64,000 nt of DNA, taken from assembly GCF_016405985.1 (NCBI RefSeq), contig NZ_JAEFCF010000003.1, positions 62,001 to 126,000 on the forward strand. The letters are read 5' to 3'. This document shows, piece after piece, positions 149 to 17,125 of this stretch (position 1 is the stretch's first letter; each line of letters begins with the position of its first letter). Source of the stretch: Paracoccus sp. IB05 (GTDB lineage: Bacteria; Pseudomonadota; Alphaproteobacteria; Rhodobacterales; Rhodobacteraceae). The notes below the pieces were generated by a model. That model worked only from the letters and a program-made list of their open reading frames with translations, did not search any database and was not told the origin of the DNA. The translations under genes were made by a program, and so were the position numbers.

Positions 149-802
149 ATGACCGATCTGAGCGCCGCAGATGTGACCGACCTGTTCCGCACCGTCTCGC
201 TGCGGATCGGCGAGGCACGCGCGGCGCTTGGAGCACTTGATGGCGCCATCGGCGATGGCGACCACGGCAATTCCATGGCCGAAGGCTTTGCCGCCCTGAC
301 CCGGGCGCTCGTCTCCGCAACCCGCGAGGGCAAGGGCGCGGGCGAGCTGTTCCCCATCGCCGCCGAGAGCTTTCTCGACGCGGTGGGCGCCACCACCGGG
401 CCGCTTTACGCCTCGGCCTTCCTGAGCGCCGGGCAGCTTTTCAGCGGCATGGACAGCATTCCCGCCGCCCGCATCCCCGAACTGGTCACCGCCTTCCATG
501 ACGGAATCGCACGGCGCGGCAAGGCGGGCGTCGGCGACAAGACCATGCTCGACGCCTGGCGGCCTGCTGCGCGTGCAGTTGCCGCCGCCGGCCCCGACCC
601 GCTGGCCGCCCTTGCCGCCGCCGAAGCCGCAGCAAGCGAGGGCCGTGATGCCACCCGCGCCATGGTTGCAGCCCTTGGCCGTGCCGCGCGGCTTGGCAGC
701 CGGACACTGGGCCATATCGACCCCGGCGCGGCCTCGGCCGTGATCATCCTCCAGGGCCTGCGCGAAGGCCTCACCGCTCGCCTGGCACGGGGGGCAAGCT
801 GA
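149..802 (+). CDS. DhaL-family subunit of a dihydroxyacetone-type kinase
   Basis: A 217-residue protein with the size and motifs of DhaL, the ADP/nucleotide-binding subunit that phosphorylates a short ketose held by DhaK. The Mg-binding signature IGDGDHG lies at residues 34-40, with aspartates 31, 36 and 38 in the expected pattern. The C-terminal lid reads GRAARLGSRTLGHIDPGAAS. ATG 149 follows the previous DhaL stop by one base. The stop codon overlaps the ATG of the SorC-DhaK fusion (TGATG at 800-804), so the two are probably translationally coupled and form a DhaK-DhaL pair. No PTS DhaM was seen, so whether the phosphate donor is ATP or a PTS protein cannot be told from here. Confidence 0.85.
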   Translation: MTDLSAADVTDLFRTVSLRIGEARAALGALDGAIGDGDHGNSMAEGFAALTRALVSATREGKGAGELFPIAAESFLDAVGATTGPLYASAFLSAGQLFSGMDSIPAARIPELVTAFHDGIARRGKAGVGDKTMLDAWRPAARAVAAAGPDPLAALAAAEAAASEGRDATRAMVAALGRAARLGSRTLGHIDPGAASAVIILQGLREGLTARLARGAS

Positions 803-2853
803 TGGCGGTCAAACCCGAAAGCGGCGTGCTGGCGGAAATGCCGATGCGCTTTGGCGACGATGCGCTCCTCTGGGCCGCCTGGCTTTATTACGAGGACGGG
901 CTGACCCAGAGCGATATCGCGCAGAAGATGGGCCTGTCGCGCGCCTCGGTGAACACCTGGCTGGCCGATGCCCGCGCGCGCGGTCTCGTCAATATCGAGA
1001 TCCAGCCCGAGCACTTTCGGGCGGTCTCTGTTGCGCGCGGTCTGAAGGACCATTTCGGCCTGCATGACTGCCTTGTGATCCCGTCGGAAGGCGACGGAAA
1101 GCCGCTGATCGAACGGCTTGGGCAGGCCGGTGCAATGGTGCTGAAACGGCTGGTGCGGTCGGGCGACACGCTGGCGGTGACCTGGGGGCGGTCGGTGCTG
1201 GCGCTGGCTTCGGCGCTGGATCATCCCGGGCTTGCCGATATCCGCGTGGTTCAGGCCACCGGCTCGACCACGGCACGCATCGCCTGGACGCCCGAAGCCT
1301 GCGCCTCGCGCCTTGCCTCGGCGCTTGGTGCGCGCTGGATCCCGCTGGCAGTGCCCGCGATCGTCTCATCACCCGCGATGCGCGCCATGCTGATGGAAGA
1401 GCCGGTGCTGGCGGAACAGCTTCAGGTTCTCTCCGAGGCCAATCGCATCATCATGGGCATCTCGTCGATGCGACCCGAAAGCACGATCCACAGCTCGGGG
1501 TTCCTCGAAGGCGTCGACCGTCACGCCCATTACCAGGACGCGGTCGGCAGCCTGTTGGGCCGGTTCATCTCGGCCAGGGGCGAGCTGGTCTCGGGGCCGG
1601 TCAATGACCGTACCATCGGGCTGGATCTCGACGGGCTGCGCCGCGTGCCGCAAAAGATCGCGGTGGCGGGCGGTATCGACAAGGTGGCCGCAATCCTTGC
1701 GGCATTGCGCGGCGGGCTGATCGATGTGCTGGTGACCGATGCCGCCACCGCCCGCGGCGTGCTGACCGCCGATGGCTGGCAGGAAAGCAGCCGCCGTCCG
1801 GCCCCTGCTGCGACTGTCCCCACAGCCACCCGCAGCCACGGCAAAAAACTGATAAATGAGGCGCGGAACGCCGTTGATGAAAGCCTCGCCGGCGCGCTGA
1901 TGGCGCATGAGGCGCTGATCAGCCTTGTCCCCGGCACCAGCCGCGCCGTGATGGCGAAGCACGGCCCGCGCCCGGGCAAAGTCGGCATCGTGATCGGCGG
2001 CGGCGCCGGGCATGAGCCGGGCTTCTGGGGCTATGTCGGCCAGGGCCTCGCCGATGCGGCGGTGGTGGGGAATATCTTTGCCGCCCCGCCGCCCGGCCCG
2101 ATCCTGGCCGCCAGCCGCGCCGTCGATGGCGGTGCCGGGCTTTTGTATATCTTCGGCAATTTCTCGGGCGATGTGATGAATTTCGAGATGGCGCGCGAGA
2201 TGGCCGAGGCCGGCGGCATCCCGGTGCGCCAGATCATCACCACCGATGACATTGCCTCGTCAGAACCCGACAGCCGTGGCTCGCGCCGGGGCGTTGCGGG
2301 CAATGTCTTTGTCTTTCGCATCGCGGGCGCGGCCGCGGATCTTGGCGCCTCGCTTGAGGCCTGCGAGGCGGTGACGCGGCGCGCGGCGCAGCGCGTCTAT
2401 ACGATGGGCCTCGCGCTGGAACCCGCCCGCCTGCCCGATACCGGCCGCCCCGGCTACGAGCTGGGCGCGGATGAGATGGAGATCGGCGTCGGTGTCCATG
2501 GCGAGCCCGGGGTGGAGCGGCAGCAGCTGGTCTCTGCCGATGATGCCGCCGATCTGCTGCTGGACCGGATCCTCTCTGAGATGGCGCCGTCGCGCGGTGA
2601 CCGGGTGGCGGTGCTGGTCAATTCGCTGGGCGGGACGCCCGCGATGGAGCTTTACATTCTCACCCGCCGCATCCGGCAGCGCCTGACGGCGCATGGCATC
2701 ACTGTCAGCCACATGCTGGTCGGCCCCTATTACACCTCGCTGGATATGGCGGGCGTCTCGCTCTCGGTCCTGCATCTCGATGATGAGCTGGCGGCGCTGA
2801 TGGACCATCCCTGCGACGCGCCGGCGCTGATGAGCAAAGGGGGCCGCGCATGA
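802..2853 (+). CDS. SorC-family transcriptional regulator fused to a DhaK ketose-kinase subunit
   Basis: This 683-residue protein has two parts. Residues 1-335 are a SorC/DeoR-like sugar-binding regulator with a helix-turn-helix at about 35-56 (TQSDIAQKMGLSRASVNTWL). After a short Pro/Ala-rich linker, residues 347-680 are a complete DhaK domain. It keeps GGGAGHEP with His404, the acid in FSGDVMNFEMA (Asp457) and the ketose-binding histidine in GVGVHGEPG (His566). In DhaK enzymes the last His forms a covalent hemiaminal with dihydroxyacetone. The expected kinase partner DhaL is encoded just upstream with overlapping codons. The fusion may be a kinase, a ketose-sensing repressor/activator, or both. 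Its HTH closely resembles that of the stand-alone SorC at 8853-9827. Similar fusions have been named in genome annotation as bifunctional regulator/DhaK, but I know of no characterised one. Confidence 0.9.
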   Translation: MAVKPESGVLAEMPMRFGDDALLWAAWLYYEDGLTQSDIAQKMGLSRASVNTWLADARARGLVNIEIQPEHFRAVSVARGLKDHFGLHDCLVIPSEGDGKPLIERLGQAGAMVLKRLVRSGDTLAVTWGRSVLALASALDHPGLADIRVVQATGSTTARIAWTPEACASRLASALGARWIPLAVPAIVSSPAMRAMLMEEPVLAEQLQVLSEANRIIMGISSMRPESTIHSSGFLEGVDRHAHYQDAVGSLLGRFISARGELVSGPVNDRTIGLDLDGLRRVPQKIAVAGGIDKVAAILAALRGGLIDVLVTDAATARGVLTADGWQESSRRPAPAATVPTATRSHGKKLINEARNAVDESLAGALMAHEALISLVPGTSRAVMAKHGPRPGKVGIVIGGGAGHEPGFWGYVGQGLADAAVVGNIFAAPPPGPILAASRAVDGGAGLLYIFGNFSGDVMNFEMAREMAEAGGIPVRQIITTDDIASSEPDSRGSRRGVAGNVFVFRIAGAAADLGASLEACEAVTRRAAQRVYTMGLALEPARLPDTGRPGYELGADEMEIGVGVHGEPGVERQQLVSADDAADLLLDRILSEMAPSRGDRVAVLVNSLGGTPAMELYILTRRIRQRLTAHGITVSHMLVGPYYTSLDMAGVSLSVLHLDDELAALMDHPCDAPALMSKGGRA

Positions 2854-3019: not shown

Positions 3020-4003
3020 GTGATCAAGACCGCTGACCGCCAGACCGTGTTTCTGGCCCTGATCAATGTGATTGTGCTGGTGGCAGGCGCCCTGCTGGCC
3101 GGGGCGAATTTCGTTGACAGCTATAATCTGCAGGTGATGGCCGCGCAGGTGCCGGAACTGGGCCTGCTGGCGCTTGGCGTCGCGCTGGCGATGATTTCCG
3201 GCAATGGCGGCATCGACCTTTCCGGGATCGCGCTGGCGAACCTTGCCGGCATCACCGCCTTTCTGGTCGCAAGCCGCATCCTGCCCCCGGGCGATGCGCC
3301 TATGGCTTTCTCCTGGACTTTCGCCGGCATCGCGCTTTGCGTCGGTCTGGCCGGCGGGCTGATCAACGGGCTGATGATCGCCTATACCGGGCTGACGCCG
3401 CTGATCGCGACGCTTGGCACCCAGCTTCTGTTCACCGGGATCGCGGTCTGGCTGACCAATGGCTCTTCTGTGAGCCTCGGCTATATCCCGCCGCTGGATG
3501 ATTTCGGCAATCTGCCGGTGCTGGGTGTGCCGCTGTGTTTCGCGCTGTTCGTGCTGATCGCGGGGCTGATCGGCTATCTGCTGCGCTTCACCCCCTTCGG
3601 CGTCAAGCTGATGCTGCTGGGATCGAATGAGAAAGCCGCCCGCTATGGCGGTATCCCGGTGAAGCGGATGATCGTCATCACCTATGCGATCTGCGGCATC
3701 CTCGCCTCGGTCGCGGGCATCGTGATCGCATCGCGCGCGGGCTCGGTGAAATGGGATTACGGCAGCTCTTACGTGCTGATCGCCATCCTGATCGCGGTCT
3801 TGGGCGGTGTTAAACCCGAAGGCGGATATGGCCGCGTCCTGTGCGTCCTGCTGGCCGCCACCGCATTGCAGATGCTGTCGAGCCTTTTCAACTTCCTCGG
3901 CATCTCGAACTTCTTCCGCGATCTGGCCTGGGGGGTGCTGCTTCTGGCGCTGCTGGCCTCGGCGCGGGTGGATCTGTCGTACTGGTTCCGACCGGCGCGA
4001 TAA
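3020..4003 (+). CDS. Sugar ABC transporter permease (RbsC/LsrC type)
   Basis: A hydrophobic protein of about 327 residues of the ribose/AI-2/xylose permease family, with the helix-rich pattern and the conserved ISGNGGIDLSG, LIATLGTQLLFTG and GSNEKAARYGGIPV segments near cytoplasmic loops. The frame is open from 2957, but a GTG at 3020 preceded by GGGAGGAAG gives a much better start and removes a polar, non-membrane leader. It is the first gene of an operon permease, binding protein, ATPase, second permease, kinase, so the two permeases are separated by the binding protein and ATPase. It forms the inner-membrane channel, probably as a heterodimer with the product of 6754-7773. Confidence 0.88.
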   Translation: MIKTADRQTVFLALINVIVLVAGALLAGANFVDSYNLQVMAAQVPELGLLALGVALAMISGNGGIDLSGIALANLAGITAFLVASRILPPGDAPMAFSWTFAGIALCVGLAGGLINGLMIAYTGLTPLIATLGTQLLFTGIAVWLTNGSSVSLGYIPPLDDFGNLPVLGVPLCFALFVLIAGLIGYLLRFTPFGVKLMLLGSNEKAARYGGIPVKRMIVITYAICGILASVAGIVIASRAGSVKWDYGSSYVLIAILIAVLGGVKPEGGYGRVLCVLLAATALQMLSSLFNFLGISNFFRDLAWGVLLLALLASARVDLSYWFRPAR

Positions 4004-4080
4004 CGGATGCGGCGCCGGCCCCGCAGGGCAGGCCGGATCGCTGCAAGACAAATGCCCCTGAAAACCGGAGGAGGACTACC

Positions 4081-5082
4081 ATGAAAACACTCGCGAAACT
4101 GGCCGGAAGCGCCATGATCGCCGGTGCGATGGTCGCAGGCGCGGCCATGGCCCAGGACAAGCAGTCGATCACCACCGTGGTCAAGATCACCGGCGAAGGC
4201 TGGTTCGTGCGGATGGATGAAGGCGTGAAAGCGTTTGACGCCGACAATGAGGCCATCGACGCGGTTCAGGTCGGCCCGGCTCAGGCCGATGCCGCACAAC
4301 AGGCCCGCATCATCGAAGACCTCGTGGCCAAAGGCGTCTCGGCCATCGCGGTCGTGCCGATGGACCCGGCGGCTCTTGAAGGCGTGCTGCGGCGTGCCCA
4401 GGCCCGTGGCATCAAGGTCATCGCGCATGAAGGCGACAGCATCGTCAACGCCGATGCCGATATCGAAGCCTTCGACAACGCAGCCTTCGGCCGCAAGATC
4501 AATGACGGCCTTGCGGAATGCATGGGCGGTGAGGGCAAATGGACGAGCTTTGTCGGCTCGCTCGGCAGCCTGACCCATAACATCTGGGCCGATGCCGGTG
4601 CTGAAAGCGCCGCAGCAAACCACCCGGGCATGGAGCTGGTCGCAGCCAAGAACGAGTCGTTCAACGACGCGAACAAGGCCTATGACAAGGCAAAAGAAAT
4701 CCTGCGTGCCTATCCGGATATCAAAGGCTTCCAGGGTTCGTCGGCCATCGATGTGATCGGCATCGGCCGTGCGGTTGAAGAGGCCGGCCTTGTCGGCAAG
4801 GTCTGCGTCTATGGCCTCGGCCTTCCGAAAGACACCGGCCCCTATCTCGAATCCGGTGCGGTCAACCGCATCTATTTCTGGGATCCGAAAGATGCGGGCT
4901 ATGTCATGAATGTCGTCGCCGCCAAAGTGCTGGCCGGCGAGGAAATCGCCGATGGCGCCGATCTCGGCGTGCCGGGCTATAACGCCGTCACCGTGACGCA
5001 GGGCCCGGGCAAGGGCATCATCATCCAGGGCGCTGCCTGGGTTGATGTCGGCAAAGACGAATACAAGAACTACCCGTTCTGA
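4081..5082 (+). CDS. Periplasmic sugar-binding protein of ABC transporter (RbsB/LsrB type)
   Basis: A 333-residue binding protein. It starts at ATG 4081 behind a strong GGAGGAGG site and has a signal peptide ending near AGAAMA-QD. The mature protein follows the type I periplasmic-binding-protein fold: KITGEGWFVRMDEG at the N-terminus, DLVAKGVSAIAVVPMDPAAL, then HEGDS and GVPGYNAVTV. These segments resemble proteins annotated as autoinducer-2/LsrB-like binding proteins, but the ligand cannot be read from sequence. Its neighbours suggest a polyol, tetrose or small ketose. A strong hairpin just downstream (5109-5140) may keep its message more abundant than that of the ATPase. Confidence 0.88.
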   Translation: MKTLAKLAGSAMIAGAMVAGAAMAQDKQSITTVVKITGEGWFVRMDEGVKAFDADNEAIDAVQVGPAQADAAQQARIIEDLVAKGVSAIAVVPMDPAALEGVLRRAQARGIKVIAHEGDSIVNADADIEAFDNAAFGRKINDGLAECMGGEGKWTSFVGSLGSLTHNIWADAGAESAAANHPGMELVAAKNESFNDANKAYDKAKEILRAYPDIKGFQGSSAIDVIGIGRAVEEAGLVGKVCVYGLGLPKDTGPYLESGAVNRIYFWDPKDAGYVMNVVAAKVLAGEEIADGADLGVPGYNAVTVTQGPGKGIIIQGAAWVDVGKDEYKNYPF

Positions 5083-5108
5083 TCTGCCCTCCCTGACCGG
5101 ACAACCAG

Positions 5109-5140
5109 GCGAAGGCGCGGCATTCTGCCCGCGCCTTCGC
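5109..5140 (+). terminator. Intra-operon hairpin after the binding-protein gene
   Basis: Perfect 12-bp inverted repeat GCGAAGGCGCGG / CCGCGCCTTCGC with an 8-nt loop, in the 82-nt gap between the binding-protein stop and the ATPase start. It has no T-run, so it looks more like an mRNA-stabilising or partially terminating stem than a full terminator. Such stems are common after periplasmic binding-protein genes, where they adjust stoichiometry. Confidence 0.65.
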
Positions 5141-5164
5141 ATTCCCAAGCTAAGGACGACCGCG

Positions 5165-6757
5165 ATGCAATCGCAGCCAGGCCAGACCAACCAATCCACC
5201 GGCCAGAAGCCCTTTCTGGAAATCCGCAACCTGCGGAAATCCTTCGGCGGCGTGCAGGCGCTGAAAGATGTCAGCCTCACGCTGGAGGCGGGCCAGATTT
5301 ACCATCTGATGGGCGAGAATGGCTGCGGCAAATCCACCCTGATCAAGATCGTCTCGGGCGCACAGAATGCGACCTCGGGGCAGATCTTCATCGATGGCGA
5401 GGCCACCGGCCCGCTGGCCGGCGATATCGGGGCCATTGGTGCGCTGAAGGCCGGGATCGAGACCGTCTACCAGGATCTCTCCCTGTTGCCGAACCTGTCG
5501 GTGGCGGAAAATATCGCGCTGACCGGCCAGCTGGTCGCGGCGGGCGGGCGTCTGGCGCGGCGGCTGAAACGGGCGGAGCTTTTCGCCACTGCCGCCAAAG
5601 CCCTGGCCGAGGTGCATCTGCCGACCGACCCTGCCTTCCTCACACGCCGCACCGATACTTTGCCGCTCGCGACCCGCCAGCTCGTGGCCATTGCCCGCGC
5701 CATCGCGGCCTCGGCGCGGCTGGTCATCATGGATGAACCCACCACCTCGCTGACCCGGCAGGAGGTCGAGAACCTGCTTTCCGTGGTGCGCCGCCTTCTT
5801 GACCAGGGCGTGACGGTGCTCTTCGTGACCCATAAGCTCGACGAGGTGAAATCGCTGGGCGGGCACGCGATCATCATGCGCGACGGCCTGAAAGTGGCGG
5901 AACGCGAGGTCGCCACCACCAATAAATCCGAGATCAGTCAGCTGATGACCGGCCGCGAGATTTCCGAGGCGCGCTACCGGACCGAACCAAAAATCGGCGA
6001 GGGGCTGCTGGAGGTCGAGACCCTCACACAGACAAACGCCTTCCGGAACCTGTCGCTGAGCCTGCGCAAGGGCGAGATCCTCGGCATCACCGGGCTTCTC
6101 GATTCCGGCCGCAATGAACTGGCACTGGCGCTGTCGGGTGTGCGCCCGGCAAGCAGCGGCGCGATCCGGCTGGAAGGCAAATCCGTCTGGCCGAAAACCC
6201 CCGGCGAGGCGATCCGGGACGGCATCGGCTATGTCCCCGAAGACCGCCTGACCGAAGGGCTGTTTCTGGAAAAACCGATCCAGGACAATGTGACCCTGCC
6301 GGTGCTTGACCGGCTGAAAAACGCAATCGGCATGATCAGCCCGAAACGCGCGCGCAAACTGGCCGAAGACCAGATTGCCGGCCTCCAGGTCGTGGCACCG
6401 AATGTCGCGGCCCCGGTGCAGTCGCTCTCGGGTGGCAATCAGCAGCGCGTGCTGATCGGGCGCTGGCTGACGATTGAACCACGCCTTCTGATCCTGCACG
6501 GCCCGACGGTCGGTGTCGATGTCGGGTCGAAAGACACCATCTTCCGCATCATCCAGCGCCTTGCGGATGAGGGGATGGGCGTCATCATCATCTCGGATGA
6601 CCTGCCCGAGCTTTTGCAGAATTGCGACCGCATCGCCGTGATGCGCCAGGGCGCGATTGCCGCAACCTATGACGCGGCGACCACCAGCGAAGATCGCCTC
6701 TATCAGACAATGGCCGGCGCAGCGCCCGCCGTCACAGACCTGGAAATGCCAGCATGA
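5165..6757 (+). CDS. Sugar ABC transporter ATP-binding protein (RbsA type, two domains)
   Basis: A tandem ATPase of 530 residues from ATG 5165 (AAGGAC upstream). The open frame extends to 5042 but that part overlaps the binding protein. The first domain has a canonical Walker A GENGCGKST (residues 50-58), a signature read as LPLATRQLVAIARA, and Walker B VIMDEPTTSL. The second has the degenerate Walker A GLLDSGRNEL, the signature SLSGGNQQRVLIGRWL, and GPTVGVDVGSK in the Walker B region. This one-intact, one-degenerate arrangement is typical of RbsA/XylG/LsrA. It powers the transporter made by the flanking permeases. The stop overlaps the next ATG (ATGA), so translation is coupled. Confidence 0.92.
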   Translation: MQSQPGQTNQSTGQKPFLEIRNLRKSFGGVQALKDVSLTLEAGQIYHLMGENGCGKSTLIKIVSGAQNATSGQIFIDGEATGPLAGDIGAIGALKAGIETVYQDLSLLPNLSVAENIALTGQLVAAGGRLARRLKRAELFATAAKALAEVHLPTDPAFLTRRTDTLPLATRQLVAIARAIAASARLVIMDEPTTSLTRQEVENLLSVVRRLLDQGVTVLFVTHKLDEVKSLGGHAIIMRDGLKVAEREVATTNKSEISQLMTGREISEARYRTEPKIGEGLLEVETLTQTNAFRNLSLSLRKGEILGITGLLDSGRNELALALSGVRPASSGAIRLEGKSVWPKTPGEAIRDGIGYVPEDRLTEGLFLEKPIQDNVTLPVLDRLKNAIGMISPKRARKLAEDQIAGLQVVAPNVAAPVQSLSGGNQQRVLIGRWLTIEPRLLILHGPTVGVDVGSKDTIFRIIQRLADEGMGVIIISDDLPELLQNCDRIAVMRQGAIAATYDAATTSEDRLYQTMAGAAPAVTDLEMPA

Positions 6758-7773
6758 CCGACGTCCCCGCTTCCGCCGCAACCCCGGGTCTGCCCGCGCG
6801 CCTCTGGGATCTGATGGGCCGCCGGCCCGAGCTCTTCACCCTTGCCCTGATCGTGGTGACGGTGATCGGCGTGGCCATTGCGAACCCGAATTTCTTCGCG
6901 ATGAACAATGTCTTCGACATTCTGCGCGCCTCGGTGGTGCGGGGGATCTTTGCGATGGGCGTGCTTGTGGTGCTGGCCGCAGGCGGCATCGACGTCTCCT
7001 TCACTGCCATCGCGGCCTTTGTGATGTATGCGCTGACCATGCTGGTCACCAATATCTTTCCGGGCATGCCGCTTTGGGTGATCCTGCCGCTGGCGGCCCT
7101 GGGCGGCGCGGTCTTTGGCGTGATCAACGGGCTTTTGGTGCATTCCCTGCGCGCACCCTCGCTGATCGTCACCATCGGCACGCAATATATCATCCGCTCG
7201 GCGCTTCTGACCTTTGTCGGGACAGCGCTGTTCATGAACCTGCCCGCCTCGATGGAGGCCTTCGGCAAGGCCTCCCTCATCACCTGGACCGGCGGTACCG
7301 GGGTGATCTCGACCCTGCCTGCGACCGTTCTGGTGCTGGTCGTGGTTGCCTTCGCCACCTGGTTCATCCTTGAACGCACCCTGATGGGCCGCGCGATCTT
7401 TGCCTCGGGCGGCAATCCGGGGATCGCAGAACGCCTTGGCTTCAACCTCTTCCATATCCGGCTGTTCGTGTTCGGCTGGGCGGGACTGCTGGCTGGTATC
7501 GCGGGCATCGTGCATGTTGCCTCGAACCGTCTCGCGAACCCCTTTGACCTTGCCGGGATGGAGCTGGAGATCATCGCAGCCGTGGTGCTTGGCGGCGCGC
7601 GGATCACCGGCGGCTCGGGGACCGTGATCGGCACGCTGCTCGGTGTGCTGCTGATCACGCTGGTGAGCAATGTTCTGGTCTTCGTGGGCATCCCCTCGAC
7701 GCTGCAGCTTGCCATTGTCGGCATCTTCATCCTGATCGCCGGCACCATTTTCGCGCTGCGCCAACGCAACTGA
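6754..7773 (+). CDS. Sugar ABC transporter permease, second subunit
   Basis: A 339-residue hydrophobic permease of the RbsC/LsrD family, overlapping the ATPase gene by four bases. Visible family segments are LAAGGIDVSFTAIAAF, LIVTIGTQYIIRSALL, FASGGNPGIAERLGFN and VVLGGARITGGSGTVIGTLLG. It is divergent from the first permease at 3020, so the pore is probably a heterodimer, as in the Lsr and rhamnose (RhaP/RhaQ) systems. Confidence 0.9.
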   Translation: MTDVPASAATPGLPARLWDLMGRRPELFTLALIVVTVIGVAIANPNFFAMNNVFDILRASVVRGIFAMGVLVVLAAGGIDVSFTAIAAFVMYALTMLVTNIFPGMPLWVILPLAALGGAVFGVINGLLVHSLRAPSLIVTIGTQYIIRSALLTFVGTALFMNLPASMEAFGKASLITWTGGTGVISTLPATVLVLVVVAFATWFILERTLMGRAIFASGGNPGIAERLGFNLFHIRLFVFGWAGLLAGIAGIVHVASNRLANPFDLAGMELEIIAAVVLGGARITGGSGTVIGTLLGVLLITLVSNVLVFVGIPSTLQLAIVGIFILIAGTIFALRQRN

Positions 7774-7811
7774 GCAAGGCGCGGCTGAACAACCTTCCGG
7801 GAGGAACCACC

Positions 7812-8756
7812 ATGAGCCATGATGTTTCGGTCATCGGCCTTTATATCCTTGACGTGCTGGGGCGGCCGGTCGATGCGATCCCGCCCGGCGGCTCGGTCGC
7901 CTTTATCGACGAAATCCGCCTGACCGTGGCCGGTACCGCCGGCGGTACCGTGGTCGATCTGGCGAAACACGGGCTGAACTGCCTTGCGGTCGGTGCGGTT
8001 GGTGACGACGAAAAGGCCGATTTCGTGCTGGCGACGCTGGCGCGGTTCGGGGTCGACACGACCCAGATGCAGCGCCTTGCGGGCGTGCCAACCTCGGCCT
8101 CGATCCTGAATATCCGCCGGAATGGCGAGCGCCCTGCCCTGCATCAGCGCGGCGCGTCGGATCATTTCGACATCATCCCCGAAACGCTGGATGCGGTGCT
8201 GGCCGCCCCGATCATCCATCTCGGCGGCACCGGTCTGCTGGCGAAACTCGATGGGGAGCCGAGCGCGAAGCTTCTGGCCGAGGCCAAGCGGCGCGGGCGG
8301 ACGACCACCTTTGACCTCCTTGGCGCGGATGACAATACGATCAGCCTCGTCGCGCCGCTGTTCCCGCATATCGATTACTTCATGCCCTCGGTCGAAGAAG
8401 CCCAGGCGATTTCCGGCGCGACGACGGTCGAGGGCGCGGGGCGCTTCTTCCTCGATCGCGGGGTGAAACAATGCGTCTTTACGCTTGGCGGGGATGGCGT
8501 CTGTTTCATGGATAACAAGGGCGCCGTGGTTCGCCAGCCGGCATTTGAGATTGAGGTGGTCGATACCACCGGCTGCGGCGATGCCTTCGACGCGGGCTTC
8601 ATCACCGCGCTGCATCATAAAATGGATCTGAAAACCGCGCTGAATTTCGCCCAGGCGACGGCGGCGCTGGTGGCGACCGGGCTCGGGTCAGATGCGGGTG
8701 TGCAGTCGTTCGACCATACGCTTGAGTTCATGAATACGGCGAAAGTCAAGGGCTGA
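7812..8756 (+). CDS. PfkB-family carbohydrate kinase
   Basis: A 314-residue cytoplasmic sugar kinase of the ribokinase/PfkB family, starting at ATG 7812 behind GGGAGG. The N-terminal GG-type region reads TVAGTAGGTVVDLAKHGL. The C-terminal signature DTTGCGDAFDAGF spans residues 251-263, with catalytic base Asp257 in the GxGD motif. It is the last gene of the transporter operon, 38 bp after the permease, and presumably phosphorylates the imported sugar or a derivative. Substrate is unassigned: ribose, fructose-like ketoses and deoxysugars all occur in this family. Confidence 0.88.
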   Translation: MSHDVSVIGLYILDVLGRPVDAIPPGGSVAFIDEIRLTVAGTAGGTVVDLAKHGLNCLAVGAVGDDEKADFVLATLARFGVDTTQMQRLAGVPTSASILNIRRNGERPALHQRGASDHFDIIPETLDAVLAAPIIHLGGTGLLAKLDGEPSAKLLAEAKRRGRTTTFDLLGADDNTISLVAPLFPHIDYFMPSVEEAQAISGATTVEGAGRFFLDRGVKQCVFTLGGDGVCFMDNKGAVVRQPAFEIEVVDTTGCGDAFDAGFITALHHKMDLKTALNFAQATAALVATGLGSDAGVQSFDHTLEFMNTAKVKG

Positions 8757-8852: not shown

Positions 8853-9827
8853 TCAGGCGTTCAGAAGCGCCGCGGCTGTTTCGGTGTCGGTTACCAGATG
8901 GCTGACATAGCCGCCCTTCAGAGTGGCGCGCAGCGCGGCGATCTTTCCTGGGCCACCGGCGACGCAGACCCGGCGGGGGATGGCCCGCAGCTCTTCAAGT
9001 TCGATCCCCATCATACGGCTGTCAAAATCACGGCGGATCTGCCGGCCTTCAGCATCGAGGAAACGGCAGATCAGCACCGCTTCGGCGCCATCTGCGGCAT
9101 AGGCGTCGATCTCATCCGTGCCGGCAATGCCGGCGATCCGCATCGTGCTGTCCGGCCCGAGACCGCCGAGACCGAAAACGATGGTGCGCGCCTTGCGGAT
9201 CAGCGCGAATTGCTCGGAAAGCGCCGGCTCCTCGCGCAAGGCGGTGCAGAGCGCGGCACTCGACAGCACCGCCGGTGCATGCATCACCATGCTCAGCGCG
9301 CCGAGATTGCGCGCCATGATCGCGGTGCAGAGCTCGGCGGAGAAATCGCGCCGCCCCATGGCTGCGCCGGTGACCTGGACCACGCTCAGCCCCTCGACGG
9401 GCTGCGAGATCGCATCGGCCACCGCCAGCACGGTGCGGCCCCAGGAGATGCAGAGCGTCTCACCCGGGGTCAGCATCCGCTCAAGCTGCCGCGCCCCGGC
9501 GGCGCCAAGGGCTGCCAGTCGCGTCGCCGCATCGTCTCCGGGCTGCACCGGCACCACCAGCGCCTCTTCGAGGCCAAAGCGCGCGGCGAGGGCCAGCGAC
9601 AGCGAATGCCGCGCCATAACACCCGCATCCATGCTGATCCGCACCGCGCCGCGTTCGCGCGCTTCCTGGAGATAATTGACCACGCTGGCGCGCGAGACGC
9701 CGAGCCGCGCGGCGATATCGCTCTGGTTCAGGCTTTCTTCATAATAGAGCCAGGCGGCCCAGATCACGATATCGTCGAATTCTGCCGGCACGGCCCCCCG
9801 CCCGCGTATCTGCGCCTCTGCCGACAT
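8853..9827 (-). CDS. SorC-family sugar-binding transcriptional regulator
   Basis: A 324-residue regulator with an N-terminal helix-turn-helix (LNQSDIAARLGVSRASVVNYL, about residues 34-54) and a SorC effector domain related to sugar-phosphate isomerase folds (ISWGRTVLAVADAI, VQVTGAAMG, GVCVAGGPGKIAALRATLKGG-like segments). It is clearly paralogous to the regulatory half of the SorC-DhaK fusion: both share the pattern IWAAWLYYEE/D ... QSDIA ... SRASV. It is divergent from the aldolase/dehydrogenase gene, with paired operator boxes in the 162-bp gap. LsrR, DeoR-like sorbitol and glycolytic regulators are relatives; the effector is likely a phosphorylated sugar. Confidence 0.9.
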   Translation of the reverse strand: MSAEAQIRGRGAVPAEFDDIVIWAAWLYYEESLNQSDIAARLGVSRASVVNYLQEARERGAVRISMDAGVMARHSLSLALAARFGLEEALVVPVQPGDDAATRLAALGAAGARQLERMLTPGETLCISWGRTVLAVADAISQPVEGLSVVQVTGAAMGRRDFSAELCTAIMARNLGALSMVMHAPAVLSSAALCTALREEPALSEQFALIRKARTIVFGLGGLGPDSTMRIAGIAGTDEIDAYAADGAEAVLICRFLDAEGRQIRRDFDSRMMGIELEELRAIPRRVCVAGGPGKIAALRATLKGGYVSHLVTDTETAAALLNA

Positions 9828-9922
9828 CAGTCCCCCTGCCCGTCACGCCCTGTCCTGCCATCAGCTTTGCCACGAAACCCAGGCCTTGGCGAGGCTTTCA
9901 CCGATCTCTTTCGTACTCGCAT

Positions 9923-9954
9923 TGACATTTGACACCAATAACTGTCATTTGACA
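9923..9954 (+). promoter_or_regulatory. Candidate SorC-family operator, paired boxes 20 bp apart, before the aldolase/dehydrogenase
   Basis: TGACATTTGACA (9923-9934) and TGTCATTTGACA (9943-9954) start 20 bp apart. The core CATTTGACA is repeated exactly at 9926 and 9946. The second box is an inverted repeat TGTCA-TT-TGACA. It lies in the divergent region between the sorC gene and the aldolase/dehydrogenase ATG (9990). The TTGACA within the boxes could also act as a -35 element. The layout matches 2918-2949. Confidence 0.65.
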
Positions 9955-9989
9955 TAAACTCAGACCTGAATGTCCAAGGAGAAGATCCG

Positions 9990-12038
9990 ATGCAATCCCT
10001 GTGGTCCGATGCGGATTTCGAAAAAACCGTTGCCGCCTATGTTGCGGCCGGTGTGAACCGCGATGTGGCGATCCGCACCTGGACGACGCGGCTGCTGGGC
10101 CAGGTGCCGCAGCTGGTGCTGCATGGCGGCGGCAATACATCGGTGAAAACCGTGATCAATGACCATGACGGCACGCCGGTCGAGGTGCTCTGCGTCAAGG
10201 GGTCGGGCTGGGATATGGGCCAGATCGAGCCTGCGGGCCTGCCGGCGCTGCGTCTGGCCGAGCTGAAGGCGATGGTGAATTACGAGGTGCTGTCGGATGA
10301 CGATATGGTCATGCTGCAGCGCCGCCTCTTGCTGGATCCGGCCTCGCCCAATCCTTCGGTCGAGGCGATCCTGCATGCGATCCTGCCCTTCCGCCATGTC
10401 GATCACACCCATGCCAATGCGATTGTCGCGCTGACCAATCAGCCGAATGGCGAGGCGCTGATCCGCGCGCTTTACCCCGAATATATCGTCATTCCCTATG
10501 TGATGCCGGGCTTTGACCTCTCGAAGGTTTGTCTGAAAGCATATAATGAGCGCCCCGATGCGCCCGGGATGATCCTGATCAAACACGGGATCTTCACCTG
10601 GTCCGACGATCCGCGTGTCGCCTATGAGGCGATGATCGAGGCGATCACCCGCGCCGAAAACCGCATCGCGGAGGGCAATCCGAAACCCTTCGGCACCGCG
10701 CCTGTGCTGAGCGGGCTTGCAGACGCGGCAAAGATCGCGCCGATCCTGCGCGGCGCCATCGCATTGCCGGGCGCGCAGGAAGGCCTGCCCCGCCGTTTCG
10801 TGATCGAACATCGCGTCAACCAGGATATCCTGGACTTCTGCGGCGCGGAAAATGTCGAAAGCCTGACCCGGCGTGGCAATGCGACACCCGAACATGTCAT
10901 CCATATCAAGCGCTTCGGCCTGGCACTGCCCGCGCCAAAAGCGGGTGATCTGAAGTCCTGGGCGGCGCTGGTCCGCGAGAAGATCGCGGGCTATATCGCG
11001 GATTACACTGATTATTTCACCCGCAACAATGCGCGGGCGGGCGGCATCAAGACCATGCTCGACCCGATGCCCCGCGTCTTCTACGTCGAAGGCGTCGGCG
11101 TCTTTGCCGCCGGCCCGACCGCGAAAGCCGCCCGGATCGGGGCCGATGTCGCCGAGGCGACGATCCAGGTGATCCGCGGCGCCGAAGGGATCGACGCTTT
11201 CGAAGCGCTGCCCGAGGCAGACCTTTTTGATCTGGAATACTGGTCGCTGGAACAGGTGAAGCTCAAGAAGGTCGCGGAAAAGCCGCTGACCCGCCAGGTC
11301 GCGGTGATCACCGGCGGTGCCGGTGGTCTGGGCCTTGTCATGGCCGAGGCCCTGCGCGCCGAAGGTGCCGAGATTGCACTGCTGGATATTGACGCCGACA
11401 AGGCCGCAGAGGCGGCGAAGCGGCTGGGCGGCATCGGCATCGGCTGCGATCTGACCGATGCGGTTGCGGTCGATGCGGCGATTGCGCAGGTGGCGCTGCG
11501 CTTTGGCGGCGTTGACATCCTCGTCTCGAATGCCGGGGCGGCCTGGCAGGGCGCGCTTCTCGACGTGTCGGATGATGATTTCCGCGCTGCGTTCGAGCTG
11601 AATTTCTGGGGTCACCACTATGTCGCCCGCGCGGTGGTGCGGGTGATGCAGGCCCAGGGCACCGGCGGTGCGCTCTTGTTCAACGTCTCGAAACAGGCGG
11701 TGAACCCGGGTCCGGACTTCGGCCCCTATGGCACGTCGAAAGCCGCGCTGATGGCCTTGATGAAGCAATATGCGGTGGAACATGCGGCGGATGGCATCAC
11801 CTCGAATGCGGTCAATCCGGACCGGATCCGCACCGGGCTGATGACCGACCAGATGATCGAGGAACGTGCCCGCGCCCGGGGCGTCACGCCCGAGGTCTAT
11901 ATGCGTGGCAACCTGCTGCATCGCGAAGTCACGGCAGAAGATGTGGCCCAGGCCGCGCTCGCACTGATCCGGGCGCGCACCTCGACCGGGGCGGTGATCA
12001 CCGTCGATGGCGGCAATACCGCTGCAATGCTGCGCTGA
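9990..12038 (+). CDS. Bifunctional class II aldolase / short-chain dehydrogenase (RhaEW-like)
   Basis: A 682-residue protein. Residues 1 to about 420 are a class II (zinc) aldolase domain: HGGGNTSVK is the phosphate-binding segment, and HVDHTHANAIVAL carries candidate metal histidines. From about 435 a complete SDR domain begins (VAVITGGAGGLGLVMAEAL, nucleotide-binding Gly motif; NVSKQA serine; YGTSKAA catalytic Tyr-Lys). The family includes the fused L-rhamnulose-1-phosphate aldolase/lactaldehyde dehydrogenase. The SDR would oxidise or reduce the aldehyde or polyol linked to the aldolase reaction. No rhamnose isomerase or FGGY rhamnulokinase is in the window, so the substrate may be another 1-phosphoketose or polyol. 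ATG 9990 follows an AAGGAGAAG site. Confidence 0.88.
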   Translation: MQSLWSDADFEKTVAAYVAAGVNRDVAIRTWTTRLLGQVPQLVLHGGGNTSVKTVINDHDGTPVEVLCVKGSGWDMGQIEPAGLPALRLAELKAMVNYEVLSDDDMVMLQRRLLLDPASPNPSVEAILHAILPFRHVDHTHANAIVALTNQPNGEALIRALYPEYIVIPYVMPGFDLSKVCLKAYNERPDAPGMILIKHGIFTWSDDPRVAYEAMIEAITRAENRIAEGNPKPFGTAPVLSGLADAAKIAPILRGAIALPGAQEGLPRRFVIEHRVNQDILDFCGAENVESLTRRGNATPEHVIHIKRFGLALPAPKAGDLKSWAALVREKIAGYIADYTDYFTRNNARAGGIKTMLDPMPRVFYVEGVGVFAAGPTAKAARIGADVAEATIQVIRGAEGIDAFEALPEADLFDLEYWSLEQVKLKKVAEKPLTRQVAVITGGAGGLGLVMAEALRAEGAEIALLDIDADKAAEAAKRLGGIGIGCDLTDAVAVDAAIAQVALRFGGVDILVSNAGAAWQGALLDVSDDDFRAAFELNFWGHHYVARAVVRVMQAQGTGGALLFNVSKQAVNPGPDFGPYGTSKAALMALMKQYAVEHAADGITSNAVNPDRIRTGLMTDQMIEERARARGVTPEVYMRGNLLHREVTAEDVAQAALALIRARTSTGAVITVDGGNTAAMLR

Positions 12039-14779: not shown

Positions 14780-17125
14780 TTGCCCGATACTGCACCCGAT
14801 ACTGCCGCCGCCGACCGCCTGACCGGCCCCGCCGATCAGACCGGTTCTGTCGCGCAGGCCGGCTTTGCCATGCCCGTCGCGGCCCGGATCTGGGATATGA
14901 AATACCGGCTGAAAGACGCGGATGGCACGCCCATCGACCTGACGGTCGCCGACAGCTGGCGTCGCGTCGCCCGCGCCCTTGCGGTGGACGAGCCTGACCC
15001 TGCCGCCGCCGAGGCCCGGTTCATGGCGGCGCTGGAAGGATTCCACTTTCTGCCCGCCGGTCGCATCCTGGCCGGAGCCGGCACCGGTCGCGCCGTCACG
15101 CTGTTCAACTGTTTCGTCATGGGCACGATCCCCGATTCCATGGAAGGGATTTTCCAGGCCCTGAAAGAGGCTGCGCTGACGCTGCAACAGGGCGGCGGCA
15201 TCGGCTATGATTTCTCGACCATCCGGCCGAAAGGCGCATTGGTAGCGTCTGTGGCGGCGGATGCTTCGGGGCCTTTGTCCTTCATGGATGTCTGGGATGC
15301 GATGTGCCGCACCATCATGTCCGCCGGCGCGCGGCGCGGCGCGATGATGGCCACACTGCGCTGCGATCACCCTGATATCCTTGACTTTATCAGTGCCAAA
15401 CAGGATGCGGCGCGGCTGAGGATGTTCAATCTCTCGGTGCTGATCACCGATGCGTTCATGGCAGCGGTGAACGCGGATCAAAACTGGGATCTGGTCTTTG
15501 GCGGCAGGGTTTATCACAGCCTGCCCGCCCGCGCGCTCTGGGACCGGATCATGCGCGCGACCTATGATTATGCCGAGCCGGGCGTGATCTTCATCGACCG
15601 CATCAACCGGATGAACAACCTCCATTATGCCGAGCTGATCAGCGCCACCAACCCTTGCGGCGAACAGCCCCTGCCGCCCTATGGCGCCTGCCTGCTCGGG
15701 TCGGTCAACCTGGCCGCGCTGGTTCGTGACCCTTTCACCGAAACGGCCCGGATCGCGGGCGACGAGCTTGCCGACCTGGTCACGACCGCCGTGCGGATGC
15801 TGGATAATGTGATCGACCAGTCGCGTTTTCCCCTGCCCGAACAGGAGGCCGAGGCCCGGGCCAAGCGGCGGATCGGCCTTGGCGTCACCGGGCTTGCCGA
15901 TGCGCTGTTGATGTGCGGGCTGCGCTATGGCGCGGATGAAGCGGTGGCCCAGACCGATGCCTGGCTCAAAGCGCTGTCACGGGCGGCTTACCTCGCCTCG
16001 GTCGATCTCGCGAAAGAGCGCGGCCCCTTCCCTCTGTTCGAGGCTGAGGCCTTTCTCAAAGGCGGCACCATGGCGGCGATGGACAAGGATATCCGCGACG
16101 CCATCCGCAGCCATGGCATCCGCAATGCGCTGGTGACCTCCATCGCGCCCACGGGAACGATCTCGCTTTATGCGGGCAATGTGTCGTCGGGGATCGAGCC
16201 GGTCTTCGCCTGGAGCACAAGGCGCAGGGTATTGCAAAAGGATGGCAGCGCGCGCGAGGAGGAGGTCGGGGATTACGCGCTGATGCGCTGGCGTGCGCTT
16301 TATGGTGACGCGCCCCTGCCAGCGCATTTCGTAACCGCGCAGGAGCTGGCGCCAATGGACCATCTGCGGATGCAGGCGGCGGCGCAGCGCCATATCGACA
16401 GCTCGATCTCGAAAACGATCAACTGCCCGGCGGATATCCCGTTCGAGGCCTTCCGCGATGTCTACCTTGCCGCCTGGGATATGGGTTGCAAGGGTTGCAC
16501 CACATACCGGCCCAATGCGGTCACAGGATCGGTGCTGAGCGTCGCGCCCGCCCCCGGGGACAGCGATACGCCCCGGGATGCGCCGCTGCCGCGCCCCGCC
16601 ACGCTTTCGGGCGAGACCTATAAGATCCGCTGGCCGGGTTCGGAACATGCGCTTTACATCACCGTGAATGATATCGTCTCGGCCGGGCGCCGCCGCCCCT
16701 TCGAGGTCTTCATCAACTCGAAAAACATGGAGCATTTTGCCTGGACGGTGGCGCTGACGCGAATGATCTCGGCGGTGTTCCGGCGGGGGGGCGATGTGTC
16801 TTTCGTGGTGGGCGAACTCAAGGCGGTGTTCGACCCGAGGGGGGGCGCCTGGATTGACGGACGCTACATCCCCTCGATCCTTGCGGCGATCGGCGGTGTG
16901 ATCGAACGCCACCTGATCGCGACCGGCTTCATCGCGGGCGAAGGAATGGGGCTGAACTCCGACCCCGGCGCCCCGCCGCCGGGCGAGGCCCCCGGGTGCG
17001 GAACGGGAACCGGGTCCGGAGAGCCCGGACCGCAGGCCATCTGCCCCAGTTGCGGATCCTTTGATCTGCGCAGGGAAGAGGGCTGCCTGATCTGCGCCAG
17101 TTGCGGCTTTTCACAATGCAGCTGA
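14780..17125 (+). CDS. nrdJ: Adenosylcobalamin-dependent (class II) ribonucleoside-diphosphate reductase
   Basis: A 781-residue protein starting at TTG 14780 behind GGAGG. It has the class II pattern: GRILAGAG and FNCFVMGTIPDSM near the N-terminus, QQGGGIGYDFSTIRPKGA, the catalytic loop NPCGEQPLPPYGACLLGSVN, LGVTGLADAL, SIAPTGTISLYAGNVSSGIEP and KGCTTYRPN. The C-terminus carries a CPSCGSFDLR ... CLICASCG zinc ribbon. It reduces ribonucleotides with B12 instead of a di-iron or glycyl radical, giving an oxygen-independent dNTP supply. Closeness to bluB gives a B12-linked neighbourhood, though the two are not one operon. Confidence 0.94.
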   Translation: MPDTAPDTAAADRLTGPADQTGSVAQAGFAMPVAARIWDMKYRLKDADGTPIDLTVADSWRRVARALAVDEPDPAAAEARFMAALEGFHFLPAGRILAGAGTGRAVTLFNCFVMGTIPDSMEGIFQALKEAALTLQQGGGIGYDFSTIRPKGALVASVAADASGPLSFMDVWDAMCRTIMSAGARRGAMMATLRCDHPDILDFISAKQDAARLRMFNLSVLITDAFMAAVNADQNWDLVFGGRVYHSLPARALWDRIMRATYDYAEPGVIFIDRINRMNNLHYAELISATNPCGEQPLPPYGACLLGSVNLAALVRDPFTETARIAGDELADLVTTAVRMLDNVIDQSRFPLPEQEAEARAKRRIGLGVTGLADALLMCGLRYGADEAVAQTDAWLKALSRAAYLASVDLAKERGPFPLFEAEAFLKGGTMAAMDKDIRDAIRSHGIRNALVTSIAPTGTISLYAGNVSSGIEPVFAWSTRRRVLQKDGSAREEEVGDYALMRWRALYGDAPLPAHFVTAQELAPMDHLRMQAAAQRHIDSSISKTINCPADIPFEAFRDVYLAAWDMGCKGCTTYRPNAVTGSVLSVAPAPGDSDTPRDAPLPRPATLSGETYKIRWPGSEHALYITVNDIVSAGRRRPFEVFINSKNMEHFAWTVALTRMISAVFRRGGDVSFVVGELKAVFDPRGGAWIDGRYIPSILAAIGGVIERHLIATGFIAGEGMGLNSDPGAPPPGEAPGCGTGTGSGEPGPQAICPSCGSFDLRREEGCLICASCGFSQCS

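Follow-up and report, generated by a model that had tools for sequence, protein, structure and literature searches.

A SorC-type regulator joined to a DhaK ketose kinase subunit in Paracoccus sp. IB05 and its relatives: a possible trigger enzyme with a candidate operator

Some enzymes are known to act as regulators as well, and in the dihydroxyacetone pathway they do so through separate partners, Escherichia coli DhaR being controlled by DhaK and DhaL. In Lactococcus lactis DhaQ-DhaS, as in E. coli DhaR-DhaK-DhaL, a DhaK-like protein governs transcription of a ketose operon, and both systems consist of separate proteins with regulators from families other than SorC. A regulator-kinase fusion is known in NadR, a trigger enzyme with an HTH and a small-molecule kinase in one chain, although its domains and pathway are unrelated to those described here. 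Within the SorC family, the effector is phospho-AI-2 for LsrR according to PDB titles and, in the available text of PMC11229326, deoxyribose-5-phosphate for DeoR and both FBP and DHAP for CggR, which they release. The 64,000-nucleotide stretch of Paracoccus sp. IB05 DNA analyzed here (the window; genes lie on its forward strand unless otherwise stated) carries a gene that shares an HTH and an effector domain with Bacillus subtilis DeoR, E. coli LsrR and Klebsiella pneumoniae SorC but, unlike regulators of the SorC/DeoR type, bears a complete DhaK at its C terminus, and that differs from the DhaQ and DhaR systems in having SorC and DhaK in a single chain.

The fusion gene (positions 802 to 2853; ORF, Pfam, alignment, and AlphaFold) encodes 683 amino acids with zero internal stops. 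The proposal of the earlier note that regulator and enzyme are joined in one gene holds, with an HTH, a SorC effector domain, a linker, and a complete DhaK following one another in a single reading frame. The short homeodomain-like HTH (SorC/DeoR type, about residues 20-71, positions 859 to 1014), which had been read as intact, is confirmed by profile models that match at about residues 25-71, by alignment, AlphaFold, and structure comparison, and its R47 aligns with DeoR R34 (DeoR base contacts from the available text of PMC11229326, assuming a numbering offset of 5). The SorC effector-binding domain PF04198 (residues 75-321, positions 1024 to 1764; alignment and structure agree with Pfam) matches with 5e-59 and 200 bits against a cut-off of 27; it was omitted from the earlier note and is a ready-made sensor. 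A flexible linker at about residues 327-345 (positions 1780 to 1836; junction alignment and AlphaFold) leads into the ketose-binding kinase domain DhaK at about residues 346-680 (positions 1837 to 2841; Pfam, alignment, and structure), where the Dak1 model PF02733 matches residues 364-675 with 3.5e-113 and 378 bits against a cut-off of 31.4. Across 49 fusions the linker varies from 18 to 29 residues, and the mean pairwise identity is 0.64 in the SorC effector domain and 0.27 in the linker. The AlphaFold model has a mean pLDDT of 82 and a pTM of 0.52, with residues 329-345 under 50, indicating that the domains fold and that their mutual placement is not fixed by the model. Purifying selection acts on both halves, with dN/dS values against five relatives of 0.04-0.24 for SorC and 0.07-0.38 for DhaK. 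A frameshift or an assembly or sequencing artefact near positions 1800 to 1860, listed earlier as a way for the reading to fail, is ruled out, its probability being practically negligible: the ORF is unbroken in 41 of 42 loci, and thus in 40 other assemblies, the junction is a linker in all 49 fusions, and 102 plasmid records each match at least 80% of the query at a single location, to which the dN/dS values can be added.

Structural comparison of the fusion model places its N-terminal half close to the effector domain of DeoR (PDB code 4oqp; Z 32.7, rmsd 2.4 over 251 residues). The full-length structures of SorC (2w48; Z 34.4, rmsd 8.7) and DeoR (8r7y; Z 31.8, rmsd 10.9) also match, the domains being swung in the former. 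The C-terminal half shares its fold with the DhaK proteins of E. coli and L. lactis (3pnl; Z 45.8, rmsd 2.0 over 331), along with the catalytic triad and a nearby DhaL gene, and is close to the DhaK-like co-activator DhaQ of L. lactis (2iu4; Z 43.6, rmsd 2.1, 320 aligned). The fusion scores below the cut-offs of the equivalog models for DeoR (NF053881, 187.7 against 420), LsrR (NF011947, 141 against 486), DhaQ (TIGR02362, 237.4 against 413.25), and DhaK (TIGR02363, 370.6 against 406.25); an unfused DhaK from a related locus, L113, also falls under the last of these, at 374.

The same architecture and its neighbors, which the earlier note had suggested looking for in other genomes, were found in 49 fusions of the same class, made up of 41 of the 42 loci in a first set that includes the IB05 locus (the 42nd, L047, ends at a contig edge) and eight more. 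The fusion is kept in Rhizobium, Ensifer, Shinella, Aureimonas, Paracoccus, and others, and is scarce in the family sample, with 5 of 149 genomes. A DhaK tree that sampled 29 of the 49 fused halves unites these with ten unfused DhaKs in a single clade (SH-aLRT 98); it calls for two changes of the fused state, with loci L043 and L125 standing apart. A SorC tree was built from 44 of the 52 gathered rows, eight solo rows being left out as unaligned in the chosen frame; it samples 29 of the 49 fused halves, and the fused rows lie on one side of a branch with a support of 74. Each tree comes from a quick search, long branches were flagged in both, and the fusion may have arisen twice, as the DhaK tree would have it, one event being also compatible. 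The earlier statement that the name exists in genome annotation is correct, as RefSeq gives exactly this architecture the product name "bifunctional sugar-binding transcriptional regulator/dihydroxyacetone kinase subunit DhaK". The architecture is already named, and a search of the openly licensed literature, mainly at title and abstract level, found no functional study to go with the name. Sinorhizobium meliloti 1021 has an orthologue of the fusion gene on pSymB (312533-314557, minus strand), and the openly licensed literature, including passages of PMC12780249 and PMC10433430 and the main text of PMC5929573, yielded no Sinorhizobium phenotype for the gene. A covalent repressor-kinase in rhizobia, pSymB included, would make it possible to test directly whether a repressor responds to the product of its own catalysis; with it come a candidate operator motif and, for plant-associated bacteria, a candidate regulon serving the use of short ketoses or tetritols.

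The likely DNA target of the fusion, judged from sequence comparison, is the palindrome TTGACA-WW-TGTC(A/G)A, which often occurs in pairs at a spacing of 20-23 bp and resembles the DeoR half-operator ATTGAACAAAATTTCAAT given in the available text of PMC11229326. With at most one mismatch, 42 intergenic and 0 coding matches occur in 59 loci, a split that depends on gene calls from a simple codon-usage script. When the second half was rearranged in 180 ways, the median number of matches was 0, compared with 82 for the palindrome itself. The fusion loci contain it in 34 of 49 cases at up to one mismatch and in 41 of 49 at up to two, and by the rule used it is absent within two mismatches in the other eight, which include L043 and L125. 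Pairs spaced 21-23 bp apart at up to two mismatches are present in eight loci, and the spacing at the IB05 locus is 20-21 bp with weak second copies. There, the palindrome TTGACATTTGTCAC (positions 2937 to 2950; motif match and matrix score 21.4) stands before the ABC transporter genes with a possible, weak second copy at positions 2917 to 2930 (matrix score 5.6, within background), and TTGACATTTGACAC (positions 9922 to 9935; motif match and matrix score 16.1) lies between a stand-alone SorC gene and an aldolase gene with a possible second copy at positions 9942 to 9955 (matrix score 6.9, within background). The operator sites proposed earlier, at positions 2918 to 2949 and 9923 to 9954, coincide with the sites at 2937 and 9922, which were derived from other genomes. 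A matrix built without the IB05 locus and run over 32 kb of its contig places its four top-scoring sites in the regions upstream of the kinase operon, the transporter genes, and the aldolase gene, the kinase-operon pair scoring 12.9 and 11.9. Top matrix scores in four Markov-resampled windows were 8.2, 13.9, 15.4, and 16.0, so that only the site at 2937 is clearly beyond chance and that at 9922 is at the edge, whereas the kinase-operon pair and the second copies are within the random scores and rest on their position. The two palindrome matches in the window, taken alone, are no surprise: 0.78 are expected, and as many turned up in 22 of 100 shuffles. As a genome-wide marker the plain palindrome was rejected: of 149 family genomes, 39 contain exact TTGACANNTGTCAA, and the full fusion occurs in just two of these 39, while the genome of IB05 has 29 one-mismatch matches of the 13-mer compared with 10 for a reversed control. 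Promoter prediction gave no sigma-70-like call at the operator-like sites. The stand-alone SorC regulator of the IB05 locus could be the owner of the candidate sites; 46 fusion loci lack a clustered solo SorC in their stretch, and 32 of these contain the palindrome at up to one mismatch.

Downstream of the fusion gene, profile models and gene calls define a sugar ABC permease (positions 3020 to 4003) and a sugar ABC ATPase (positions 5165 to 6757), and profile models a sugar-binding protein with RhaS and LsrB as its nearest models, both below their cut-offs (positions 4081 to 5082), a further sugar ABC permease (positions 6754 to 7773), and a PfkB-family sugar kinase (positions 7812 to 8756). 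The stand-alone SorC regulator follows on the reverse strand (positions 8853 to 9827; profile models and alignment) and is 39-41% identical to the fused SorC half. Next, on the forward strand again, is a bifunctional class II aldolase/short-chain dehydrogenase (SDR) (positions 9990 to 12038; profile models). A PADLOC search gave no match to a defense system. At locus L043 the fusion adjoins ApnL and OiaX, both over the cut-off, and an OiaK-like gene. One unfused DhaK that groups with the fused halves sits in an apionate/erythrulose-type locus: L113 has an unfused DhaK-DhaL with DerI, triose-phosphate isomerase, ApnL, and OiaX, and its DhaK is a near relative of the fused one. The neighbor genes of this relative recall the tetritol pathway, in which LerK is the L-erythrulose 1-kinase (available text of PMC10733421), a likeness that comes from gene context. 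The ketose substrate is probably a C3-C4 compound, with erythrulose first for the rhizobial operons and less certain in the IB05 locus.

The three DhaK residues to which the earlier note had pointed, His404, Asp457, and His566 (positions 2011 to 2013, 2170 to 2172, and 2497 to 2499), are present and align with H56, D109, and H218 of E. coli DhaK, and the triad is invariant in all 49 fusions. His566, like H218 of E. coli, is presumably the covalent ketose ligand. A difference from E. coli DhaK is found at K104, where glycine is present in 49 of 49 fusions and in 53 of 53 grouped unfused relatives, the rows L047, L090, and L114 standing outside the groups counted. The gene for the partner DhaL (positions 149 to 802; profile models and alignment), with D31, D36, and D38 intact, does overlap the fusion gene as had been noted, its stop codon sharing one base with the fusion start codon, and a DhaL gene with an intact Asp triad lies within two genes of the fusion at all 49 loci. 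The DhaM model TIGR02364 has no match in the IB05 genome, which makes the kinase presumably of the ATP type. The window opens with the 3' end of a gene that starts upstream of it and encodes a 576-amino acid DhaK-DhaL fusion (positions 1 to 147; profile models on the IB05 contig), so that the SorC-DhaK fusion is not the sole kinase subunit in the locus. A further, separate DhaK occurs in the fetched stretch at 45 of the 49 loci, and at the other four (L038, L043, L044, and L125) the fetched DNA contains no DhaK besides the fusion. The four loci, and the clustering of the DhaK half with unfused DhaKs, suggest that the fusion is probably a working kinase subunit.

Our leading reading, held at somewhat short of an even chance, is that the fusion is a trigger enzyme that would repress its own ketose regulon, help DhaL phosphorylate a short ketose, and sense the phosphoketose in its SorC pocket. 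The HTH, presented by the dimer of dimers typical of SorC, would bind the palindromes identified by comparative genomics, and the bound protein would presumably repress the genes behind them, which are the kinase operon and the sugar-transporter genes, joined in the window by the aldolase/SDR gene. The DhaK half, given its residues and partner gene, could hold a short ketose on His566 and phosphorylate it with ATP-carrying DhaL. By analogy with the family, the SorC effector pocket would take up the resulting phosphoketose, the tetramer would loosen and the genes would be expressed, and the switch would thereby report the flux through the active site of the fusion itself. The effectors named for solved SorC members are phosphorylated, which makes it more economical to assume induction by the kinase product than by the free ketose. 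Against product sensing counts the alignment of T153 of the fusion with DeoR Lys141, which we take to be the covalent effector site. EryD, also COG2390, is described in the available text of PMC3522698 as responding to erythritol; a non-phosphorylated inducer is therefore not foreign to the SorC family, and this also counts against the product model. A more elaborate version, in which the four kinase subunits of the DNA-bound tetramer would make the releasing phosphoketose within tethering distance, so that DhaL-ATP and ketose jointly gate transcription and flux, not concentration, is measured, seems to us rather unlikely.

A switch of the DhaQ or DhaR kind, driven by ketose occupancy or DhaL interaction as the earlier note suggested, is possible, if on the doubtful side; here DNA binding would change when ketose occupies the DhaK half or when DhaL, loaded with ATP or ADP, makes contact, with the SorC pocket secondary. 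The DhaR-DhaK complexes of E. coli (structure entries 4lrx and 4lry), the close fold of DhaQ, and the fact that DhaK follows immediately after the SorC domain in all 49 fusions speak for it, but a DhaK-driven switch would not need the complete and conserved SorC effector domain, the linker is predicted to be disordered and its poor conservation gives no sign of a rigid relay, and the fusion scores below the cut-off of the DhaQ model. The flexible linker and independent folding in the AlphaFold model would fit a passive fusion that would keep repressor and kinase subunit in fixed ratio without cross-talk, the inducer coming from elsewhere in the pathway; unfused equivalents are also known, locus L115 having a solo SorC beside DhaK-DhaL. 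The retention of the fusion across the genera listed above argues against this reading, which we judge unlikely, yet its presence in so few of the family genomes tempers the point. That the DhaK half is a catalytically dead sensor is very unlikely: the separate second DhaK at most loci would allow it, but the triad and the nearby DhaL are kept in every fusion, four loci have no other DhaK in the stretch, and selection on this half is purifying.

A separate DhaK could in principle be made from an internal start. The IB05 gene has no in-frame ATG, GTG, or TTG at aligned residues 322-352; such codons are present there in 30 of the 41 fusions examined, and a separate DhaK may be made from them elsewhere than in this gene.

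The fusion gene (window 802-2853, + strand) is a single open frame of 683 residues in which Pfam places an HTH at about residues 25-71, the SorC sugar-binding effector domain (PF04198) at residues 75-321 and Dak1 (PF02733) at residues 364-675. An AlphaFold model built from 43 fusions (mean pLDDT 82) shows the SorC and DhaK parts both folded and the linker (residues 329-345) unfolded, and its pTM of 0.52 means that the mutual placement of the two parts is not fixed by the model. The DhaK part superposes onto E. coli DhaK (3pnl) with Z 45.8 and rmsd 2.0 over 331, the SorC part onto the DeoR effector domain (4oqp) with Z 32.7 and rmsd 2.4 over 251, and the model onto full-length SorC (2w48) with Z 34.4 and rmsd 8.7 over 302. 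Judged by alignment, the fused SorC domain retains the core of its family, for example K294, common to DeoR, LsrR, SorC and Lmo0547, and with an inferred numbering offset R47 is the predicted counterpart of the DNA-contacting DeoR Arg-34. The dN/dS values against five relatives are low in both halves (SorC 0.04-0.24, DhaK 0.07-0.38). A frameshift or sequencing artefact between the two parts had been considered in the earlier note; the fusion is real, with a single uninterrupted ORF in 41 of 42 loci examined, own locus counted.

A scan of 84,980 species genomes by short peptide patterns, from which the best 80 loci were kept as a lower bound, gives 40 full-length fusions, one cut by a contig end and 39 loci matching the DhaK part only; the full-length and cut fusions are all from Alphaproteobacteria by name. 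Full-length fusions occur in 1/385, 5/398 and 5/149 genomes of the class, phylum and family samples, each of which includes the genome studied here; it is the sole carrier in the class sample, and the other carriers all belong to the same class. This sparse occurrence indicates a widespread but patchy distribution. At least 80% of the fusion is held in one place by 102 of 72,556 plasmid records, S. meliloti 1021 pSymB being among the records with the fusion, and Sinorhizobium accounts for 66 of 103 matching plasmid records. Many of these matches already carry the RefSeq name 'bifunctional sugar-binding transcriptional regulator/dihydroxyacetone ...', so the architecture is named in annotation, as had been remarked; no functional study or mechanism of a SorC-DhaK fusion was found in the open-licence literature. 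Regulator-enzyme fusions are known as such, e.g. NadR.

His-404, Asp-457 and His-566 align with E. coli DhaK His-56, Asp-109 and His-218, and the triad, read as intact from the single sequence, is invariant in 49/49 fusions, 10/10 near unfused DhaKs and 43/43 partner-type DhaKs (separate DhaKs in the same operon as a fusion), counts that omit three rows (L047, L090 and L114). A DhaL gene lies at most two genes from the fusion in 49/49 loci, with its Asp triad intact in every case. The overlap with the partner DhaL gene (149-802, + strand) noticed earlier is confirmed, one base being common to its stop and the fusion start codon, and overlaps of 1 or 4 bases between an upstream DhaL and the fusion are present in 14/49 loci. 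Another DhaK is present in the fetched stretch in 45/49 fusion loci and is missing from the 18-19 kb fetched in four (L038, L043, L044 and L125). A profile search of own genome gave no DhaM match, and the phosphoryl donor is therefore presumably ATP. The DhaK half is probably a living kinase subunit.

In a DhaK tree of 81 rows, the 29 fused DhaK halves included form one clade (support 98) with ten unfused DhaKs, of which eight come from loci without a fusion (L109-L113 and L115-L117) and two are the partners in L022 and L030. A second clade (support 100) holds the partner DhaKs of the remaining operons in the tree, own DhaK-DhaL among them. Neighbors of the unfused kin were tested by profile for one locus, L113, where the D-apionate lactonase ApnL, the 3-oxo-isoapionate-4-phosphate decarboxylase OiaX, the D-erythrulose-4-phosphate isomerase DerI and a triose-phosphate isomerase lie above NCBIfam cut-offs and an OiaK-like kinase below; some gene clusters of L113 recur in L109, L111 and L112 and not in L116 or L117. 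The fusion of L043 lies in an ApnL-OiaX-OiaK neighborhood without a separate DhaK. The order ABC ATPase, permease, binding protein, SDR, DhaK, DhaL, fusion, DhaL is present in 27/49 fusion loci (hand count). The L013 SDR is a member of the GolD/DthD family (400 bits against a cut-off of 286), and the L029 RpiB is DerI (242.1, cut-off 240). LerK, LerI and DerI are described as tetritol enzymes (PMC10733421), and the neighboring genes point to short ketoses, erythrulose first, as likely substrates.

In the locus studied here a DhaK-DhaL fusion gene of 576 residues (C42:60417-62147 of own contig, the window starting inside its 3' end and the gene ending at window 147) precedes the DhaL/SorC-DhaK pair, so two ketose-kinase lineages are encoded. 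Downstream of the fusion are a sugar ABC transporter (3020-7773), a PfkB kinase (7812-8756) and a bifunctional aldolase/short-chain dehydrogenase (9990-12038). These neighbors, with no GolD/DthD-type SDR, make the substrate less certain here; DerI is present elsewhere in the genome (240.4 bits). A stand-alone SorC gene (8853-9827, strand opposite to the fusion) separates the PfkB gene from the aldolase/SDR gene and is preceded by an operator-like site; its product shares 39-41% identity with the SorC half of the fusion.

Comparison of intergenic stretches reveals a 14-bp palindrome, TTGACA-WW-TGTC(A/G)A. Over 59 loci, matches to TTGACANNTGTCAA with at most one mismatch number 42 in intergenic DNA (137 kb) versus 0 in coding DNA (902 kb), and those with exactly two mismatches 22 versus 7. 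Sites upstream of an operon-type gene are present in 34/49 fusion loci at one mismatch and 41/49 at two; under this upstream rule 8/49 have none at two mismatches (L017, L022, L028, L030, L035, L043, L124 and L125), L028 having sites ~500 bp upstream, outside the positional rule. Since the -35 consensus is TTGACA too, the second half was rearranged as a control: the true half gives 82 matches (both strands, each palindrome counted twice), compared with a median of 0 for 180 arrangements and 27 for the next best of them. Two copies 21-23 bp apart (at most two mismatches) occur in eight loci (L019, L021, L024, L026, L028, L032, L041 and L045). DeoR and CggR sit on DNA as a dimer-of-dimers, and the DeoR half-operator ATTGAACAAAATTTCAAT is similar to the palindrome (PMC11229326); by analogy, copies about two helical turns apart would fit this type of assembly.

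Applied to 32 kb of own contig, a matrix from 40 sites of other loci predicts as its four best sites 2937 (21.4) before the transporter genes, 9922 (16.1) before the aldolase gene, and C42:60254 (12.9) and 60233 (11.9) before the DhaK-DhaL/DhaL/fusion operon, with weak second copies at 2917 (5.6) and 9942 (6.9), 20 bp from the stronger ones. Top scores in four Markov-resampled control windows are 8.2, 13.9, 15.4 and 16.0, so only 2937 is clearly above chance by score and the other sites rest on position; in the window alone, two palindrome matches versus 0.78 expected mean little. Three results speak against the assignment: own genome has 29 one-mismatch matches of the 13-mer versus 10 with the reversed control, although its sole exact match is site 2937; promoter prediction gave no sigma-70-like promoter at own operator-like sites; and the exact palindrome is found in 39/149 family genomes, two of these with a full fusion.

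Of the 46 fusion loci whose stretch shows no clustered solo SorC gene, 32 have the palindrome, which makes the fusion the natural candidate binder there; a SorC encoded elsewhere in the genome may bind it instead, and within the window the solo SorC (8853-9827) may recognize these sites as well. What the analysis shows is how the fusion is built and conserved, its partner gene and the enriched palindrome. We infer DNA binding and a sign of control by which the fusion would repress its own ketose regulon, an enzyme activity by which the DhaK half with DhaL would phosphorylate the incoming ketose, and an effector, the phosphorylated product, which would enter the SorC pocket and lift repression.

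This economical reading, release of the repressor by the phosphoketose that it makes, is put forward tentatively as a testable in-cis sensing model offered by this joining of a SorC repressor with a DhaK subunit. Effectors described in the family include fructose-1,6-bisphosphate and dihydroxyacetone phosphate, which release CggR, and deoxyribose-5-phosphate for DeoR (PMC11229326); phospho-AI-2 is bound by LsrR according to PDB titles. Erythritol is described as the signal for EryD, a member of the same COG (PMC3522698), so inducer phosphorylation is usual, not certain. The earlier note had suggested that ketose occupancy or DhaL contact could be the signal; this mechanism, for which DhaR and DhaQ are parallels, is a less likely alternative. 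Less probable still is a passive fusion of repressor and kinase subunit.

A GC-centered palindrome, TTGACAGCTGTCAA, recurs in own-family genomes, at times in tight clusters (e.g. G821 and G829), and 39/74 exact palindrome sites of family genomes have a GC center (hand count). In rhizobial loci a recurring block, TTGCAAAC..ATTGCTTCCATCTTC, with a GC-rich hairpin lies between DhaL and the fusion (L013, about 7796-7928); it differs from the TTGACA palindrome and is possibly a promoter of its own. A further SorC gene of own genome (C31:205394-207563, the match having one internal TGA) adjoins a D-erythrulose-4-phosphate isomerase gene, perhaps in an erythritol locus. L115 (G849:C50) contains the same parts unfused, with DhaK-DhaL beside a solo SorC, aldolase/SDR, PfkB, TIM and RpiB and an exact TTGACATGTGTCAA site at 15677, and its genome has a fusion too, on another contig (L121).
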